Source of the DNA: Streptosporangiales bacterium
GTDB taxonomy: Bacteria > Actinomycetota > Actinomycetes > Streptosporangiales > WHST01
Direction of reading: 5' to 3'
Assembly (NCBI GenBank): GCA_009379825.1
Contig: WHTA01000011.1
Coordinates: forward strand, 1 to 64,000
Length of the DNA stretch: 64,000 bases
Below the pieces are notes generated by a model. That model saw only the letters and a program-made list of their open reading frames with translations. It was not told the DNA's origin and searched no databases. Position numbers and translations under genes: made by a program. Below are positions 37,865-46,464 of the stretch, one piece after another (position 1 is the first letter of the stretch; each line of letters begins with the position of its first letter).

Positions 37865-38578
37865 TCAGGCCTCTGCCTCGGAGTCCAGCAGCCCGCGCCA
37901 GTAGCTGTCCGCGCTCTGCAGGTGCCGCTCGAGCAGGTCGACCGCACGGTCCTCGTCCCGCGCGGCGAGGGCATCGAAGAGTCCTACGTGCTCGTCGTGC
38001 GACTGCCGACACCGCGCGGGCTCCCTGAAGAAGTACTCACGCCGTTTCTCTGTCATGTAGTAGAAGACGTTGACCAGACGGAACAGCACCTGGTTATGCG
38101 TCGCCTTGGCGATCTCGCAGTGGAAGACGCGGTCGAGCCTGGCGATCGAGCCGCCGGCCTCGATCTCGGCCGCGGAGTCGTCGAGGCAGGCGCGGAGCGC
38201 CTCGATGTTGGCCTCGGTGTGGCGCACGCAGGCGAGCCGGACGGCCTGGACCTCCTGGATGCGGCGGACCTCGACGATCTCGCCCACCTCGTCCTTCGAC
38301 AGCGGCACACCGATCTGGGCGAACAGTGCCAGCGCCTCGATGCTCGCCGTCTCGGTCGTCATGTAGATGCCGGACTTCGGCCGCCGCTCGATCACCCGCA
38401 GCGCCTCGAGCGCCGCCAGCGCCTCCCGCATCTGGGCCCGGCTGGTCTGGAACCGGTCGGCGAGCTGGCGTTCGGACGGAGCGCGCTCGTCCGGCGCGTA
38501 ACCACGGGCGAGTAGGAACGGCACGAGCTGCGCGACCAGCGTCTGTTGGTCCGTCCTCGCTGCCTCGCCAACACTCAC
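37865..38578 (-). CDS. GntR regulator of the FadR/FCD subfamily
   Basis: A 237-residue protein. The winged HTH is seen in LARGYAPDERAPSERQLADR and SRAQMREALAALEALRVIER. The FCD effector domain has metal-binding His residues (FHCEIAKATHNQVLFRLVN, then SHDEHVGLFDALAARD). GTG 38578 has a strong binding site (GAGAGGAG). It is divergent from the Nramp-like/enolase-superfamily operon and probably controls it through the inverted repeat between them. FCD ligands are usually small organic acids such as sugar acids. Confidence 0.9.
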   Translation of the reverse strand: MSVGEAARTDQQTLVAQLVPFLLARGYAPDERAPSERQLADRFQTSRAQMREALAALEALRVIERRPKSGIYMTTETASIEALALFAQIGVPLSKDEVGEIVEVRRIQEVQAVRLACVRHTEANIEALRACLDDSAAEIEAGGSIARLDRVFHCEIAKATHNQVLFRLVNVFYYMTEKRREYFFREPARCRQSHDEHVGLFDALAARDEDRAVDLLERHLQSADSYWRGLLDSEAEA

Positions 38579-38630: not shown

Positions 38631-38661
38631 AATTGGTCTTTCCAATCTGGCCTGACCAATT
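38631..38661. promoter_or_regulatory. Inverted repeats in the gntR/transporter intergenic region
   Basis: AATTGGTC (38631-38638) and GACCAATT (38654-38661) are perfect inverted 8-mers 15 bases apart. A nested ATTGG-TCTTT-CCAAT sits on the left half. TTGGTC/GACCAA halves fit the TGGT-N-ACCA pattern of FadR-type GntR operators. The position between divergent genes supports autoregulation plus control of the transporter. Confidence 0.65.
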
Positions 38662-38702: not shown

Positions 38703-40040
38703 ATGAACGCAACCAGCTCCCCGACCGCCACCGTGTCGCCACCGCCGGTCCCCACCGGCTGGAAGGGGTACCTGAAGGGCGTAGGCCCCGGCCTCGTCGT
38801 CGCGATGTCATGGCTGGGGACCGGCGATCTCATCGACTCCTCGGTCGCCGGCGGCAACTACGGGTACGCGTTGATGTGGGCGATGACGCTCGCCTGCATC
38901 ACCAAGTACTTTTACGCGAGCGGTCTCGCGAAGTACCAGCTTGTGCAACAGGTTCGGGGACATCACGCCGCTCGCCGGGTTCCGCAGGCTGTGGCGCTGG
39001 TCCCGCTGCTGCTCGGCATCGGGGCGCTGATCACCGGCTTCGTGTTGCAGACCTACATCGCGCGGGGCATCGGCACCGCGCTGTTCCACCTCAGCGGTGG
39101 TCTGGGTGGCGACCGCTGGGGAGTCGCCATCTGGACCACCGTCGGGATCCTGCTGACCATCGGCCTCGCGCTGAGCAAATCGCGCCAGTACCGGATCCTC
39201 GAGTACGTCGCGCGGGCCACCGTGGTCGTCCTCATCCTCACCTTCGTCACGACCGCCGCCGTCAACCGGCCGGACGCCAGCGAGCTCGGCGCCGGCCTGT
39301 TGTTCTCCCTGCCCGAGGACCGCGGCGTCTTCAGCTCGCTGCTCGTCGCGGTCGCCCTCGTCGCCGCGATCGGCAGCTCGATCGGCACGCTCCTCTACAG
39401 CGAGTTCGTCAGGGACAAGGGCTGGGTCGGACCGCAGTACCTGAAACTGCAGCGGTTCGACCTGGCGGTCGGCCTCGGCGCCACCGTGCTCATCAACCTG
39501 GCCATCTGGACGGTGGCCGCGGAGACGTTGCAAGGCACCGGGCGCACCATCGAGAACGAGCAGCACCTCAGCGACATGATGGCGACGGCCGTGGGCTCGA
39601 TCGGCCCCACCCTGTTGTGGATCTCGTTCTTCTTCATCACCTTCAGCTCGTTCCCCGCGTACGGCCGCGGGTACGCGACGCTGTTCCTCTCCGGCATCCA
39701 CAGCAGTTTCGAGAGTCGCGGCCAGCGGTACGGCAGCCCGGAGAACGACCCGCTCTACAAGTGGATCCAGTTCGGCCTGCTCTACTCGGTGCCGGTGGTC
39801 TTCGGCCTGCCGATGTTCTCGAACCTGGTGGCACTCACCGTCGCCGGCAACTCGGTCGCCGGACTGCTCGCGCCGTTCGTCATCATCGGCATCCTCGTGC
39901 TTACCAGCCGCAAGTCGATGATGCAGGACGGTTACGCCAACCGCCCGTGGGAGATCGCCGTGCTCGCCGCCGTCGGTCTCTTCGCCGTCTGGGCGTCCTG
40001 GGGAGTGGTAAAGGGGCTGCTCTCCATGCTGCCCGGCTAG
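38703..40040 (+). CDS. Nramp-related transporter without the canonical metal-binding motifs
   Basis: A 445-residue protein with about eleven membrane segments that aligns with Nramp transporters. However, the TM1 metal site DPGN is replaced by GTGD (residues 39-42 in AMSWLGTGDLIDSSVAGGNY). The TM6 MPH motif is also absent (LGATVLINLAIWTVAAETL). Residues 81-99 look out of frame: reading one base ahead gives CNRFGDITPLAGFRRLW, so two compensating indels (near 38943 and 39000) are probable. It shares an operon with an enolase-superfamily enzyme and is controlled by an FCD regulator. Transport of an organic acid or atypical cation is therefore as likely as transport of Mn or Fe. Confidence 0.75.
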   Translation: MNATSSPTATVSPPPVPTGWKGYLKGVGPGLVVAMSWLGTGDLIDSSVAGGNYGYALMWAMTLACITKYFYASGLAKYQLVQQVRGHHAARRVPQAVALVPLLLGIGALITGFVLQTYIARGIGTALFHLSGGLGGDRWGVAIWTTVGILLTIGLALSKSRQYRILEYVARATVVVLILTFVTTAAVNRPDASELGAGLLFSLPEDRGVFSSLLVAVALVAAIGSSIGTLLYSEFVRDKGWVGPQYLKLQRFDLAVGLGATVLINLAIWTVAAETLQGTGRTIENEQHLSDMMATAVGSIGPTLLWISFFFITFSSFPAYGRGYATLFLSGIHSSFESRGQRYGSPENDPLYKWIQFGLLYSVPVVFGLPMFSNLVALTVAGNSVAGLLAPFVIIGILVLTSRKSMMQDGYANRPWEIAVLAAVGLFAVWASWGVVKGLLSMLPG

Positions 40041-40064: not shown

Positions 40065-41210
40065 ATGCGCATGAAGATCGTCGACGTACAAGCGTTCCCC
40101 TGCTCGTTCCCGACCGCCCCGGAGGCCCGGGTGAAGATGGGCATCGGGGAGGCGGTGAAGCGGGACACCGTCGTCGTCAAGGTTACGACGGACGACGGCC
40201 TCGTCGGCTGGGGCGAGGCGCATCACGGCCGCGCACCGGGGACGATCGCGCACCTGATCAACAGCAACCTCAAGCACCTGGTCGTCGGTATGTCCGCAAC
40301 CGACGTGGCCGGCGTCTGGCAACGGCTGTACCGGATGCACTTCTCCAGTCACGGGCTCGGTGCCGGCACGGCCATCGCGATGAGCGGTATCGACATGGCG
40401 CTGTGGGACGTCAGGGGCAAGGCCGTCGGCTGGCCGCTCTACCGGCTGCTCGGCGGCGCCGCCCGCGAGATACCCGCGTACGCGGGCGGCGTATCGCTCG
40501 GCTACGCGGAACCCGGCGAGCTGATCGACGAGATGAGACCGTCGGTCGAGGCCGGCTACCGCGCGGTGAAGGTCCGCATCGGCGACTCCCCCGACCGCGA
40601 CCTCGCCCGGGTCGCCGCCGTCCGGGATGCGTTCGGCGACGACCTCGTCATCCTCACCGACGCGAACACCGGCTACTCGGTGGCCGACGCCAGGGCAGCC
40701 ATCCCGGGGCTGGTCGAGCACGGTGTCTCGTGGCTGGAGGAACCGTTCCCGCCGCACGACTACCGCAGCTACCAGACGGCCAGCAGCTACGGGCCGATCC
40801 CGCTTGCGGCCGGCGAGAACCACTACACGCGCTTCGAGTTCCACCGCCTGATCACCGACGGCGCAGTGAGCATCCTGCAGCCCGACCTCTCCAAGACAGG
40901 CGGCGTCACGGAGGTGATGCGCATCGCGGCGCTGGCTTCGGCGTGGAAGCTCTCGATCAACCCGCACACGGCGTCCAGCGGCCTGAACATGGCGGCCACC
41001 ATCCACCTGCTCGCGGCGATCGACAACGGCGGCTACTTCGAGGGCGACGTCTCCCGCGGCAACCTGTTCCGCGACCAGCTCGTCTCGACGCCGTACGAGG
41101 TGAGCGCGGCAGGCACCGTCCGTCCGCTCGAAGGTCCAGGCCTCGGCCTCGGGGTGGACGAGGACTTCCTCGCCGCCCATCCGGTGATCGACGGGCCGAG
41201 CTACGTCTGA
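40065..41210 (+). CDS. Mandelate racemase/muconate lactonizing-type enolase-superfamily enzyme
   Basis: A 381-residue enolase-superfamily protein. The capping domain is seen early (VVVKVTTDDGLVGWGEAHHG). The barrel shows YRAVKVRIGD with the K-x-K/R base pair region, metal ligands in ILTDANTGY, SWLEEPFPPHDY and LAAGENHYTRFEF, and INPHTASSGLNMA with the second base His. This is the mandelate racemase-type set used by sugar-acid dehydratases. ATG 40065 follows an AGGA; ATG 40071 is the alternative. It lies 24 bases behind the transporter gene. Confidence 0.9.
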   Translation: MRMKIVDVQAFPCSFPTAPEARVKMGIGEAVKRDTVVVKVTTDDGLVGWGEAHHGRAPGTIAHLINSNLKHLVVGMSATDVAGVWQRLYRMHFSSHGLGAGTAIAMSGIDMALWDVRGKAVGWPLYRLLGGAAREIPAYAGGVSLGYAEPGELIDEMRPSVEAGYRAVKVRIGDSPDRDLARVAAVRDAFGDDLVILTDANTGYSVADARAAIPGLVEHGVSWLEEPFPPHDYRSYQTASSYGPIPLAAGENHYTRFEFHRLITDGAVSILQPDLSKTGGVTEVMRIAALASAWKLSINPHTASSGLNMAATIHLLAAIDNGGYFEGDVSRGNLFRDQLVSTPYEVSAAGTVRPLEGPGLGLGVDEDFLAAHPVIDGPSYV

Positions 41211-41314
41211 CCCTCACGCTCCGCGTTGACCTCCGGTCGCCACTGGCGCGTCAGCTGCCCGTCATCTGACCCGGACACGATGACGTGCGTCCGAACTACC
41301 ACGTGGAGGTCACT

Positions 41315-41787
41315 GTGAGAGTCATCAGGATCGCGCGCGCCGCCACGGCGCTCCTGATCGCCTACGCTGCCGGGATGGGCCTGGCGATACCGGCAGCCGC
41401 CGGCACCGACGTCGCGGTCATCGCGCATCGCGGTTCGTCCGGGATCGCCCCGGAGAACACGGCCGCGGCCGTCAAGGCCGCCATCAAGCAGGACGCGGAC
41501 TTCGTCGAGATCGACGTGCAGCGCACGAAGGACGGGAAGCTGGTCAACTTCCACGCCTCGATGCGGAGCGTCCGTCCGACGCCGAGCTGGTCGAGCTGAG
41601 CACCTGGGCGGACCAGGTCAACACCAGCACCGACGTCACCGACGAGGCGCTCGTCGAGCGGGTGCAGGAGCTCGGCATGGAGAGCAACGTCTGGACCGTC
41701 AACGAGCCCGGCCGGATGCGTGAACTGGTGGGCTTCGGCGTGGACGGCATAATCACCGACTTCCCCCAGTCACTCACCCAGTCCTGA
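41315..41787 (+). pseudogene. Glycerophosphodiester phosphodiesterase with internal deletion
   Basis: From GTG 41315 (GTGGAGG binding site) the frame has a signal peptide (ATALLIAYAAGMGLAIPAAA) and the GDPD start VAVIAHRGSSGIAPENTAAA followed by DFVEIDVQRTKDGKLV. After about 85 residues the central barrel is missing. The family's C-terminal part appears in another frame (LVERVQELGMESNVWTVNEP, VDGIITDFP) and ends at TGA 41787. Full-length relatives have about 280 residues; here about 130 are gone and the frame is lost at about 41575. The remaining product could not fold as a barrel. Confidence 0.8.
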
Positions 41788-41850
41788 CGCCGGCGGCCAG
41801 ATCCCCGTCGCCGCTGCGGCCGGCGTGCTGCTACTGTTAGCAGCGCGTTC

Positions 41851-41923
41851 GCGCCGCTAGCTCAACTGGCAGAGCAACGGACTCTTAATCCGTGGGTTCG
41901 GGGTTCGAGTCCCTGGCGGCGCA
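41851..41923 (+). tRNA. tRNA-Lys (CTT anticodon)
   Basis: A complete cloverleaf. The acceptor GCGCCGC pairs with GCGGCGC, the D-arm is AGCTCAACTGGCAGAGCA, the anticodon loop is GACTCTTAATC with CTT, and the T-arm is GGGTTCGAGTCCC. The discriminator is A. A phage-type integrase gene begins its 3' end 68 bases away, so the tRNA 3' end is the probable attachment site of a former integrated element. Confidence 0.97.
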
Positions 41924-41936
41924 CACTCTACGCAGG

Positions 41937-41981
41937 TCAGGGCCATGATCACGGCTGCAAAGCTGCTGGTCATGGCCCTGA
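41937..41981. terminator. 12-bp inverted repeat between tRNA-Lys and integrase
   Basis: TCAGGGCCATGA (41937-41948) is repeated inverted as TCATGGCCCTGA (41970-41981). The inner spacer itself has a GCTGC/GCAGC pair. It lies 10 bases after the integrase stop on the minus strand and 14 bases after the tRNA on the plus strand, so it may be a two-way terminator. No T-run follows. Confidence 0.6.
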
Positions 41982-41990
41982 ACCCGCCGG

Positions 41991-43163
41991 TTACCCACCG
42001 CTTTCCTCTTTCGAGGGCTCATCGAAGATGTCCTCCAACGCGGCGACGACCCGAGGGTTACTGGCCTTCCGGCCGAAGTAGACGTCCTGGGTCATCGACG
42101 GCCTAGCGTGCCCGAGCTGGTCGGCGACGTCACGGCTGGTCAGACCCGCCTCGTCCAGGATGGTCGCGGCGGTCTTGCGGAAGTTGTGCGAAGTTACCCA
42201 CGCAAACTTGGCACTCCCTCGCGCGTTGCGAAGATCCCGGCGCGTATTCCACGGGTCGCGGAGGCCACCCTCGGTGTTCGGGAAGACCGGGGCATCCAGC
42301 CGTGGGTTCGCGAGGAACCGTCGCTGCAGCATCGCCATCGCCCAGTCCGGTAGCCGCAGGGTCCGCTTGCCCGTGTCGGTCTTGGTGGTCTTACGCAGCA
42401 AGCCCTTACCTGTGACGCGGATGATGGTCGAGTCGAAGGTCACTTCACCGGTGGTGAAGTTGACCTGTGACCAGAGCACCGCGATGGCCTCGCCGATGCG
42501 GACGCCGGTCGCGAGCAGGAACCGGGTCAAATCGGGTAGGTCCCGCCGCACGGCCTTCTCATCAGTGTCGAGCTGGACCAGCCACTCCGTGCGTTCCTCG
42601 CGGGTGAGCGCTCGCGGCGCCTTTCGAGGCTTGCCCTCGATGGGCGAGACGTCGCGAACGGGGTTGGTGAGGATCGCTCCGTAGCGGATAGCGAGCCCGA
42701 AGACACCGGAGAGGACGCTGCGACAGGCCTTGGCCGTCGGCGGTCCCGTCTCGTCAGCAACCTGCGTCAGGAACCTGTCGAGCACGCCGGTCGTCGCCTC
42801 GGCTACGCGCAGCTCCCCCAGGGCCGGCAGGATATGCCCGTCGATGTGCCGCTGGTAAGTCTCTGCGCTGCCCGGTGAACGTGTGCCCTTCTCGACGGCC
42901 CTGTCGAACCGCTCCTTCCAGAGCTTGATGGCATCACGTAGGTAGCTCGCCCCGGACAGCTCGCCTTGGCGCGCGAGTGCGGAACGGTCCTGGAGAGCGA
43001 CCCGCAGCTTGCTTCGAGCAGCATTCTCGGTCTTGCCCCAGCGTTCGACCCGCCGGGTTCGCCCGTCGAAGTCGCGGTAGCGGGCCATGGCGCGGTACCT
43101 GGTGGGCTTGCCGTCGTCATCGCGGGCGGCGACGCAGACGGAGATCTCGCCCCAGGTGCCAAG
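41991..43163 (-). pseudogene. Tyrosine-recombinase integrase lacking its start
   Basis: The frame has a complete integrase body: an N-terminal SAM-like/AP2-type part (ISVCVAARDDDGKPTRYRAM, YRDFDGRTRRVERWGKTENA) and a core-binding domain (SAETYQRHIDGHILPALGEL). The catalytic domain has Arg in LATGVRIGEAIAVLW, HNFRKTAATILDEAG, and LGHARPSMTQDVYFG with the Tyr nucleophile. Homology to family N-termini begins at LGTWGEIS (43163). Immediately upstream the sequence belongs to an MFS transporter, so the first few codons and the promoter are lost. Translation might still start at a later ATG (MARYRDFDG), but this is doubtful. The gene sits beside tRNA-Lys, as usual for such elements. Confidence 0.75.
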
Positions 43164-43777
43164 CGGAGGACGGCACCCCAGACGTCCGGGCGGCCGTTGC
43201 GAACCGTGGGCGCACCGGCGGCGACACCTCGCCAGGCCAGGGCTAGCGCGCAGGCGGCCATCGGCACGTTCACGAACATCACCCAGCGCCAGCTGGCGTA
43301 CTCGGTGAGCGGGCCGCCGATCAGGACGCCGAGGGCACCGCCGGCAGCGTTCATCGCGCTCCATCCGCCGAAGGCCCGGACGCGGGGCTTGCCGGTGGGG
43401 AACGTCGCGCTCAGCAGCGCAAGCGCGGACGGCGCCAGCGCGGCAGCCCCGATGCCCTGCACGGCACGGGCGGCGACGAGCTGGCCGGGGTCCTGGGCGA
43501 AGCCGCCGGCGAGCGAGGCGAGGCCGAACAGGCCGAGCCCGAGCAGCAGGACCCGTTTGTGGCCGTACCGGTCGGCCGCCTTGCCGCCAAGGAGCAGCAG
43601 CCCGCCGAAGGTGCGGGCGTACGCGTGGATCACCCAGGTCAGGCCCACTGCGCTGAAACCGAGGCCGGCAGCGATCTGCGGGAGTCCGACGTTCACGACC
43701 GACAGGTCAAGCGACACCAGGAACTGCACGGCGGCGACCGCGGCGAGGGTGAGCCCCTTGGACGAATTTTCGAACAC
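43164..43777 (-). pseudogene. MFS drug transporter (EmrB/QacA-type), 3' truncated
   Basis: From GTG 43777 the frame encodes the first six membrane helices of a 14-TM-type MFS efflux pump. It includes QFLVSLDLSVVNVGLPQIAA (motif D1), KAADRYGHKRVLLLGLGLFG (motif A) and AFGGWSAMNAAGGALGVLIG (motif C-like). After RPDVWGAVL the frame is joined to integrase sequence, so the second half is missing. The next gene, tetR, is divergent. Together they look like a drug-efflux/regulator pair whose pump was cut by a deletion that ended inside the integrase. Confidence 0.75.
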
Positions 43778-44958: not shown

Positions 44959-46464
44959 ATGTCCGCCCCCGCGATGTGGGTAGCGCTCTGCGTCTTCGCC
45001 CTCGTGATGATCGTGCTCGGCTACCTCGGCCACCGCGGCACGACGAGCACCATGGAGGACTTCGTCCTCGGCAGCAGGAAGCTCGGCATGCTGCCGGCCT
45101 TCTTCACCGTGACCGCCACCTTGTTCAGCGCGTTCTCGTACTTCGGCATCATCGGCCAGTACTACAGCAGCGGCCTCGGCGCCTGGATCCAGGTCGCCAC
45201 CACCGCCGCGGTGGGGCCGATCCTCTACTTCGCCGGCACGAGGATCTGGCTGGTCGCCAAGAAGTACGGGTTCGTCAACGTCACCGAGTACCTCTCCGAC
45301 AGGTACAAGTCGCCGGCGGTCGGGCTGGTCGCCGGTCTCATCATGATCGCCGCGCTCGTGCCTTACATGGGCGCGCAGTTCCGCGGCAGCGGGCTCACCC
45401 TCGAGGCGGTCACCGGCGGCGGCATCCCGTTCTGGGCCGGCGCGGTCTTCCTCGCCGTCGTCGTCACGCTGTACGTGATGTCCGGCGGGTTCCGCAGCGT
45501 GGTGTGGACGGACGTCATCCAGGGCGCGCTGATGTACGTCCTGCTGATCGTCGCCATGGTGCTGCTGCTCGTCACCACGAAGGGCAGCGTCGGCGACCTG
45601 ATGCAGGCGGTGGAGGACGAGCGCGCGGGACTGCTGTCCAACCCCGGCGCCGACGGCACATTCGGCCTGCCGTACCTGATCTCCGTGCTCGTCATCTTCG
45701 CCGCGGCGCACTTCACCATGCCGCAGCTGCAGCAACGCTGGATGGCCGCACGCAGCCACAGGACGCTGAAGTTCACCGCACTCTCGCTGCCGGTGGGCAC
45801 CGCCATCATCTACATGTGCGGCTTCTACATCGCCATGGTCGGTGTCGTGCAGCGGCCGAACCTGGAGACGCCGGAGGCGATCTACCCGACGCTGATCGCG
45901 GACGTGATGCCGCAGTGGCTGCTCGTCATCGCCATCCTCGCGATCATCGCGGCGACCGGGAGCACGGCGAACTCCATCGTGCTCACGCTGAGCTCGATCG
46001 TGGCCAACGAGTACTACCGGCCGCTCGTCGCGAAGCGCGACACCAACCGCAGCCACGACAAGCTGGTCACCACCGTCACCCGGGTGATGCTGCCGATCCT
46101 CGTCGCGGGTGGGCTCCTGGTGGCGTTCTACGGGCCGGCAACCATCATCGAGATCATCGTGGCCATCACCTGGCCCGCGGTCTTCCTGATCTTCCCTACG
46201 CTCTTCGCCGGCCTGTACTGGCGAAGGGCGACGGCGGTCGCCGCGGTCGCGTCGATGGTGGTGTCCGAGGTGCTGTTCCTCAGCCTGCACCTCGGCTGGC
46301 TGCCGATCGACCTGGCCGGCTGGCACCCGGCGATCCCGGCGGGCATCCTCGGCGTCCTCGTGCTGGTGGTAGGCAGCCTGGTCACGGCACCGCCGCCGCA
46401 GGAGCACCTGGACCGGCACTTCGCGATGTTCGACCCGGCAGAGCCGCAGCCGACGAACGCCTAG
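44959..46464 (+). CDS. Sodium:solute symporter (MctP-like, monocarboxylate type)
   Basis: A 501-residue SSS-family transporter with about 13 membrane helices. It has GTTSTMEDFVLGSRKLGMLP at the start, SAFSYFGIIGQYYSSGLG in TM2, and YVMSGGFRSVVWTDVIQGAL, the conserved central SSS motif. Relatives with a DUF3311 partner import pyruvate, lactate, acetate or similar acids with Na+ or H+. Its stop shares the four bases CTAG with the stop of the convergent thioesterase gene. Confidence 0.9.
   Translation: MSAPAMWVALCVFALVMIVLGYLGHRGTTSTMEDFVLGSRKLGMLPAFFTVTATLFSAFSYFGIIGQYYSSGLGAWIQVATTAAVGPILYFAGTRIWLVAKKYGFVNVTEYLSDRYKSPAVGLVAGLIMIAALVPYMGAQFRGSGLTLEAVTGGGIPFWAGAVFLAVVVTLYVMSGGFRSVVWTDVIQGALMYVLLIVAMVLLLVTTKGSVGDLMQAVEDERAGLLSNPGADGTFGLPYLISVLVIFAAAHFTMPQLQQRWMAARSHRTLKFTALSLPVGTAIIYMCGFYIAMVGVVQRPNLETPEAIYPTLIADVMPQWLLVIAILAIIAATGSTANSIVLTLSSIVANEYYRPLVAKRDTNRSHDKLVTTVTRVMLPILVAGGLLVAFYGPATIIEIIVAITWPAVFLIFPTLFAGLYWRRATAVAAVASMVVSEVLFLSLHLGWLPIDLAGWHPAIPAGILGVLVLVVGSLVTAPPPQEHLDRHFAMFDPAEPQPTNA

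Follow-up and report, generated by a model that had tools for sequence, protein, structure and literature searches.

The window analyzed here, a stretch of 64,000 nucleotides from a Streptosporangiales bacterium (contig WHTA01000011.1, positions 1 to 64,000), raises the question of what is carried by an Nramp-family protein that lacks the metal-binding motifs and is encoded directly upstream of a mandelate racemase (MR)-type enzyme. The protein, P0001, is encoded by an intact open frame of 445 codons (38703–40040, + strand) and matches the Pfam Nramp family PF01566 with 104.1 bits against a cut-off of 29.8. It misses the cut-offs of both MntH models, scoring 53.9 of 430 bits for NF001923 and 32 of 272.5 bits for TIGR01197. 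The broad model NF037982, named "Nramp family divalent metal transporter," is passed with 87.1 against a cut-off of 50, which accounts for the metal-transporter labels in databases. An AlphaFold2 model built from an input alignment of 31 sequences (pLDDT 89, pTM 0.88) predicts the Nramp variant of the LeuT fold, with a helix break in TM6 at residues 225–226 and no break in TM1 by DSSP. The top fold matches of this model were DraNramp 8e5s (TM 0.78/0.88), EleNRMT, and the model of Bacillus subtilis YcsG. The 26 best PDB matches were Nramp-family entries throughout, and the amino acid carriers ApcT and AdiC ranked below the Nramps.

Alignment of P0001 with DraNramp, E. coli MntH, BfraNramp, and EleNRMT showed that GTGD replaces the metal-binding DPGN of TM1 (residues 39–42; 38817–38828, + strand) and that TM6, AAIGSSIGTLLY, is devoid of MPH and places GSSIGT at that position. 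The sequence-only reading had reported both changes, and they are borne out by the four references, the TM1 change also by conservation among 29 ungapped members of a clade. P0001 therefore falls outside the canonical Nramp/MntH (SLC11) proteins, which are defined by DPGN and MPH. It possesses neither the DAGG/APW motifs nor the MgtE_N partner genes of the NRMT group, and it lacks the GPG[ST]/VPYN motifs of the PxpT/YcsG proteins and branches outside their clade. Its glycine motif in TM1 and its position outside the canonical and NRMT clades are those of the G-motif Nramp-related proteins. P0001 is an Nramp-family protein in the wide sense, but its motifs set it apart from the metal-transporting Nramps.

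Relatives were gathered from 46 genome loci, plasmids, the host genome, and other actinobacteria. On the basis of tree and motifs, they were split into canonical DPGN/MPH, NRMT-like DAGG/APW, PxpT-like GPGT/VPYN (one member of which, L087, adjoins pxpA), GSGE, and YGYW groups and the group of P0001, where YGYW is a working label for proteins with GGVGGT...YGY in TM6. A further Nramp-related group from actinobacteria (L164–L168), with D[IM]GD in TM1 and MTPYE in TM6, fits none of the named groups, and its neighborhoods contain no obvious metal or acid partner. The clade of P0001 shares LTWLG[AT]GD in TM1 and GAVGGSxxNLxYPY in TM6, and the phylogeny of the GTGD homologs showed that motif loss marks this whole clade, whose members occur in several phyla. 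G39 and G41 are kept in 29 of 29 and D42 in 27 of 29 ungapped members, which argues that GTGD did not arise by chance. The clade is rare: at the thresholds used, matches occurred in 4 of 298 other genomes of the order and in 4 of 394 others of the class that were sampled, and these low numbers point to a sporadic, probably horizontal, spread.

P0001 itself departs from the clade at six positions (R68K, N82Q, G221A, G225S, N229T, and P233S), at each of which the 30 other aligned members agree, so that P0001 is unique among 31. Four of these changes fall in the TM6 segment AAIGSSIGTLLYSEF (residues 221–235; 39363–39407, + strand), which is without MPH and deviates from the clade consensus. The branch leading to P0001 is long (0.63 in the tree), and no close ortholog was found among the relatives gathered. 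Since six positions have changed and no close ortholog was found there, the substrate of P0001 may differ from that of its clade, or its function may be weakened.

The pairing of P0001 with an MR-type enzyme, the second feature named in the sequence-only reading, is confirmed by a gene that starts 24 bp downstream (40065–41210, + strand) and encodes a 381-aa member of the enolase superfamily (P0002; MR_MLE_C 198.6 bits, MR_MLE_N 74.9 bits). Its motif residues place P0002 in the MR subgroup (the acidic metal ligands D199, E225 or E226, and E251; the Lys motif K169-x-R171; and a H301–D274 dyad), and its nearest solved structure, 3bjs (E 6e-133), bears a general family name only. On the other side of P0001, a divergent gene with a GTG start at 38578 and the ribosome site GGAGAGGAG encodes a 237-aa FCD-domain GntR (FadR-type) regulator (37865–38578, − strand; FCD 86.9 bits, GntR 42.3 bits). 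The intergenic region between the regulator gene and P0001 is occupied by a 31-bp palindrome, AATTGGTCTTTCCAATCTGGCCTGACCAATT (38631–38661), which was seen in 0 of 100 shuffles and is a probable operator. It contains two TGG-N5-CCA boxes, and ATTGGN5CCAAT is exact at 38632–38646 and has two mismatches at 38646–38660. The regulator proposed earlier is thus in place; its control of P0001 we infer from the divergent gene, and the palindrome backs this. Beyond P0002, a short glycerophosphodiester phosphodiesterase-like fragment adjoins a site-specific integrase (41285–43364), as if an element had been inserted beside the operon, and beyond the operon, at a distance of 3.7 kb downstream, there is a sodium:solute symporter-like gene (44959–46464).

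Orthologs of P0002 with 52–64% identity occur in Shinella, Polaromonas, and Cupriavidus. In Shinella, the ortholog is accompanied by a FadR-type regulator and a sugar ABC transporter, whereas its partners in Polaromonas and Cupriavidus are genes for TctC, IlvD, and aldehyde dehydrogenase. The regulator from Shinella shares 46% identity with the FCD protein of the window, far above any other compared, and the promoter region of the Shinella ABC-MR-FadR operon contains ATTGGTAGTACCAAA (L193:4684–4698), one mismatch from the window box. Regulator and enzyme are therefore also paired in another phylum, there with a different transporter. A conserved linkage of the Nramp gene to this enzyme was not found, since the MR enzymes nearest to P0002 beside other clade members are only 24–29% identical to it and its own orthologs stand with ABC or tricarboxylate transporters.

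The wider context was examined in a neighborhood survey of 39 non-redundant clade loci and 38 canonical, NRMT, and other D-motif loci. Genes were called with a codon-score caller whose starts can be late, which makes strict operon counts unreliable, and for this reason the survey relied on neighborhoods spanning ±2 and ±4 genes. Iterated profiles served for DtxR, MgtE_N, and ZIP, and a neighbor was counted if it lay within four genes. With control loci that are all actinobacterial and clade loci that span phyla, DtxR, MgtE_N, or ZIP neighbors were present at 0 of 39 clade loci versus 17 of 38 metal-type loci (Fisher p = 6e-7), and FCD regulators at 11 of 39 versus 1 of 38 (p = 0.003). These two tests were not picked from the neighbors of the clade; the acid-enzyme families were, so their counts are partly circular and descriptive. 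Within ±2 genes and among the matches listed, metal-type members adjoin the DtxR C-domain (9), FeoA (8), and MgtE_N (7), whereas clade members adjoin Amidohydro_2 (7), DHDPS (7), FCD (7), BNR (6), and PdxA (3), as well as MR_MLE, 2-hydroxyacid dehydrogenase, IlvD/Edd, RraA, and CoA-transferase families. The linkage that is conserved is to acid catabolism, together with the FCD regulators.

Two counts from this survey were set aside. The DUF1537 seed is a PdxA gene, which makes the DUF1537 and PdxA counts one and the same, and the former is not evidence. Likewise, the MR count was not used as evidence; of the seven loci counted as "MR," L040 and L057 encode mannonate dehydratase-like proteins and not MR enzymes. 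Another plausible organic-solute carrier lies within four genes at a few clade loci, examples being TctA at L151, a TRAP transporter at L153, an SSS-like protein at L044, and a TauE-like protein at L154.

We highlight two clade loci that bear on the substrate. At an actinobacterial locus (L163), a CdaR-like regulator is divergent from the Nramp gene, which is followed by genes for 3-dehydro-L-gulonate-2-dehydrogenase (above its model cut-off), a 2-hydroxyacid dehydrogenase, two glucarate dehydratases (scores of 659 and 736 bits, short of the strict 829-bit cut-off), a DapA-like protein, and a glycerate kinase. Besides the Nramp gene, no recognizable solute permease was found in this locus, and, as judged from gene content, the Nramp-like protein fills the permease slot of this predicted glucarate operon. 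The gene set agrees with the gud/gar pathway, which is known to include the DapA-like GudL and to use alternative carriers (PMC11775122). This example is a single genome, the carrier having been found once among 67 genomes of the family. The second locus, in a pectin cluster on a Croceibacterium plasmid (L065), encodes an acid-sugar kinase, PdxA, DHDPS, the Nramp-like protein, pectate lyase, GH28, and pectinesterases.

Elsewhere in the clade, FCD and Nramp genes lie beside FAD-linked oxidase and CoA-transferase genes (L063 and L064), and the nearest actinobacterial relatives, including a host paralog (L012), are accompanied by paired amidohydrolases, an FAD oxidoreductase, and sometimes a Rieske protein. 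These neighbors indicate that the substrates of the clade are broader than sugar acids. The sugar-acid context expected from the sequence-only reading is present at L163 and L065, but it is too narrow for a clade that also adjoins amidohydrolases, Rieske ferredoxins, and FAD-linked oxidases. In acidobacteria (L044, L047, L049, L051, and L060), a TonB receptor, a BNR/sialidase-like protein, a PhyH dioxygenase, and an HpcH/HpaI-type aldolase occur in conserved order, and these predicted clusters look like an uptake-and-degradation set for an acid.

The host genome contains eight Nramp-family genes, none with the canonical DPGN/MPH motifs. A ninth PF01566 match (C38) was rejected because it is a weak cross-match that falls within the gene of an SSS symporter. 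Among the host paralogs, L013 neighbors a gamma-glutamyltranspeptidase gene, L014 galactarate dehydratase-like and LarA-like genes, and L011 acyl-CoA synthetase and enoyl-CoA hydratase genes. More generally, sister G-motif groups adjoin gamma-glutamyltranspeptidase, oxoprolinase, D-glutamate cyclase, and galactarate dehydratase-like genes. The YGYW group (L013, L155–L162, and related loci) has gamma-glutamyltranspeptidase and FCD genes nearby, with oxoprolinase and D-glutamate cyclase in the pooled neighbors, which suggests 5-oxoproline or gamma-glutamyl compounds as its candidate substrates. A search of the host genome for pxpA (PF03746) found no such gene, and a PxpABC-type 5-oxoproline operon is accordingly less likely in this host.

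Taken together, we consider it likely that P0001 is a secondary carrier of the Nramp/LeuT fold that would import a carboxylic acid for the adjacent enzyme. The suggestion of an Nramp-fold organic-acid carrier stands in part: its core is well supported by the context across phyla, from the metal-neighbor contrast of the survey to L163, L065, and the PxpT system discussed below, but the pairing with this enzyme is not conserved and sugar acids are too narrow a class for the clade. The imported substrate would most likely be a sugar acid or hydroxy acid, which the MR-type enzyme would then dehydrate, epimerize, or cyclize. In amino acid carriers such as ApcT and AdiC, a glycine-rich unwound TM1 holds the substrate carboxylate. 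By analogy, the carboxylate could be held in P0001 by backbone amides and hydroxyls of the glycine/serine-rich G-T-G-D in the middle of TM1 and G-S-S in the broken TM6, the same positions at which Asp, Asn, Met, and His hold the metal in canonical Nramps. The conserved TM1 aspartate may be where a coupling ion, H+ or Na+, binds, and the FCD regulator, bound at 38631–38661, would keep transcription repressed on either side until it is released by the acid or a metabolite.

The same aspartate counts against an acid carrier, as it is conserved where the metal-binding asparagine sits and could still bind a cation. MR-type enzymes require a divalent metal, and P0001 could instead import divalent cations through an altered site, much as NRMTs do with Mg, and so feed Mg or Mn to the enzyme. 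YcsG, from a sister G-motif group, also counts against an acid carrier and favors metal supply, having been reported to import Mn (PMC10448178), and the NRMTs show that a metal switch is possible in the fold. The absence of a DPGN/MPH member among the eight host proteins also speaks for an importer of this kind. We nevertheless regard it as unlikely, because NRMT-type proteins have DAGG/APW motifs and MgtE_N neighbors and clade members have neither, because no DtxR, ZIP, or MgtE_N neighbor was seen at any of the 39 clade loci, and because the pathways nearby vary widely and include many enzymes that give no reason for a dedicated metal supply.

Sugar acids chelate divalent metals, and the acid and the cation could also be carried together, as CitM does with Mg-citrate, the aspartate holding the cation and the glycine-rich turns holding the chelating sugar acid. 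A complex of this kind would explain an acidic residue that is otherwise odd in an organic-anion site. It would also reconcile the conflicting readings of two proteins with 50% identity (PMC13274462), namely, the report of Mn import by YcsG (PMC10448178) and that of 5-oxoproline use through PxpT (PMC13274462). The aspartate is, however, absent from the PxpT-type members, which have GPGT, and we consider transport of a metal-acid complex by P0001 improbable. Finally, the six near-invariant residues changed in P0001 alone of 31, its long branch, and the truncated gene and integrase downstream would suit a drifting or specialized relic that has changed its job or is being lost from a clade of acid carriers, but this is very improbable given the intact 445-codon frame, the confident fold, the enzyme active-site residues, and the palindrome, and the altered substrate-site segments also fit a changed substrate.

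With import of a carboxylic acid as the preferred reading, P0001 is probably an organic-acid carrier under a wrong database name, as far as motifs and neighborhoods can tell. Whether the same extends to the large G-motif branch of the Nramps we regard as evenly balanced. The branch would then consist of carboxylate carriers that replace GudP, TRAP, tricarboxylate, or ABC transporters, metal transport would be derived, and the family would have begun with organic anions; with the same even chance, its substrates would comprise sugar acids, hydroxy acids, 5-oxoproline, and other organic acids. If the clade moves carboxylates, it supplies the missing permease to many catabolic operons and makes "Nramp family divalent metal transporter" the wrong label for many proteins; how metal selectivity arose in the Nramp superfamily could then be studied by comparison with a related site for organic anions.

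Among known systems, the canonical MntH/Nramp proteins (DraNramp and E. coli MntH) have the fold and Pfam family in common with P0001 but differ in the DPGN/MPH site and the DtxR-type regulators often found nearby, neither of which P0001 has. EleNRMT (7qia; PMC8806188) resembles P0001 in its fold and as an Nramp-related protein without DPGN/MPH, and differs in its DAGG/APW motifs, the MgtE_N partners of its group, and its transport of Mg and Mn. Ray, Berry and Gaudet (2026), who analyzed 97,939 sequences, described the Nramp-related groups other than the NRMT-like proteins and MntG as "entirely uncharacterized" (PMC12873925). Their paraphyletic G-motif groups are Nramp-related proteins without DPGN/MPH that share the TM1 glycine motif with P0001; these groups are defined by sequence only, and P0001 was fitted to them as a whole and not to a named subgroup. 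In the papers searched for Nramp proteins in glucarate, threonate, or uronate use, no description of a sugar-acid role was found, and one published figure legend labels an Nramp within alginolytic systems a "metal-ion transporter," nothing more. On the enzyme side, the group of 3bjs, an MR family protein from a Polaromonas plasmid, is 52–64% identical to P0002 and shares an acid-catabolic context, but its partners are tricarboxylate-type or ABC transporters and that of P0002 is an Nramp. GudP/GarP and GarABC hold the glucarate-operon slot that an Nramp-like protein holds at L163, and they belong to unrelated families of symporters and ABC transporters, respectively (PMC11775122). The precedent for an acid carrier is PxpT (Cg1142) of Corynebacterium glutamicum, an NRAMP-family protein required for growth on 5-oxoproline (PMC13274462). 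It differs from P0001 in that the pxpA-adjacent members have GPGT/VPYN, the partners are the PxpABC oxoprolinase genes, and the substrate is 5-oxoproline; what it shares with the window is an Nramp-family protein with a divergent GntR-type regulator, in one operon with organic-acid enzymes (PMC13274462).
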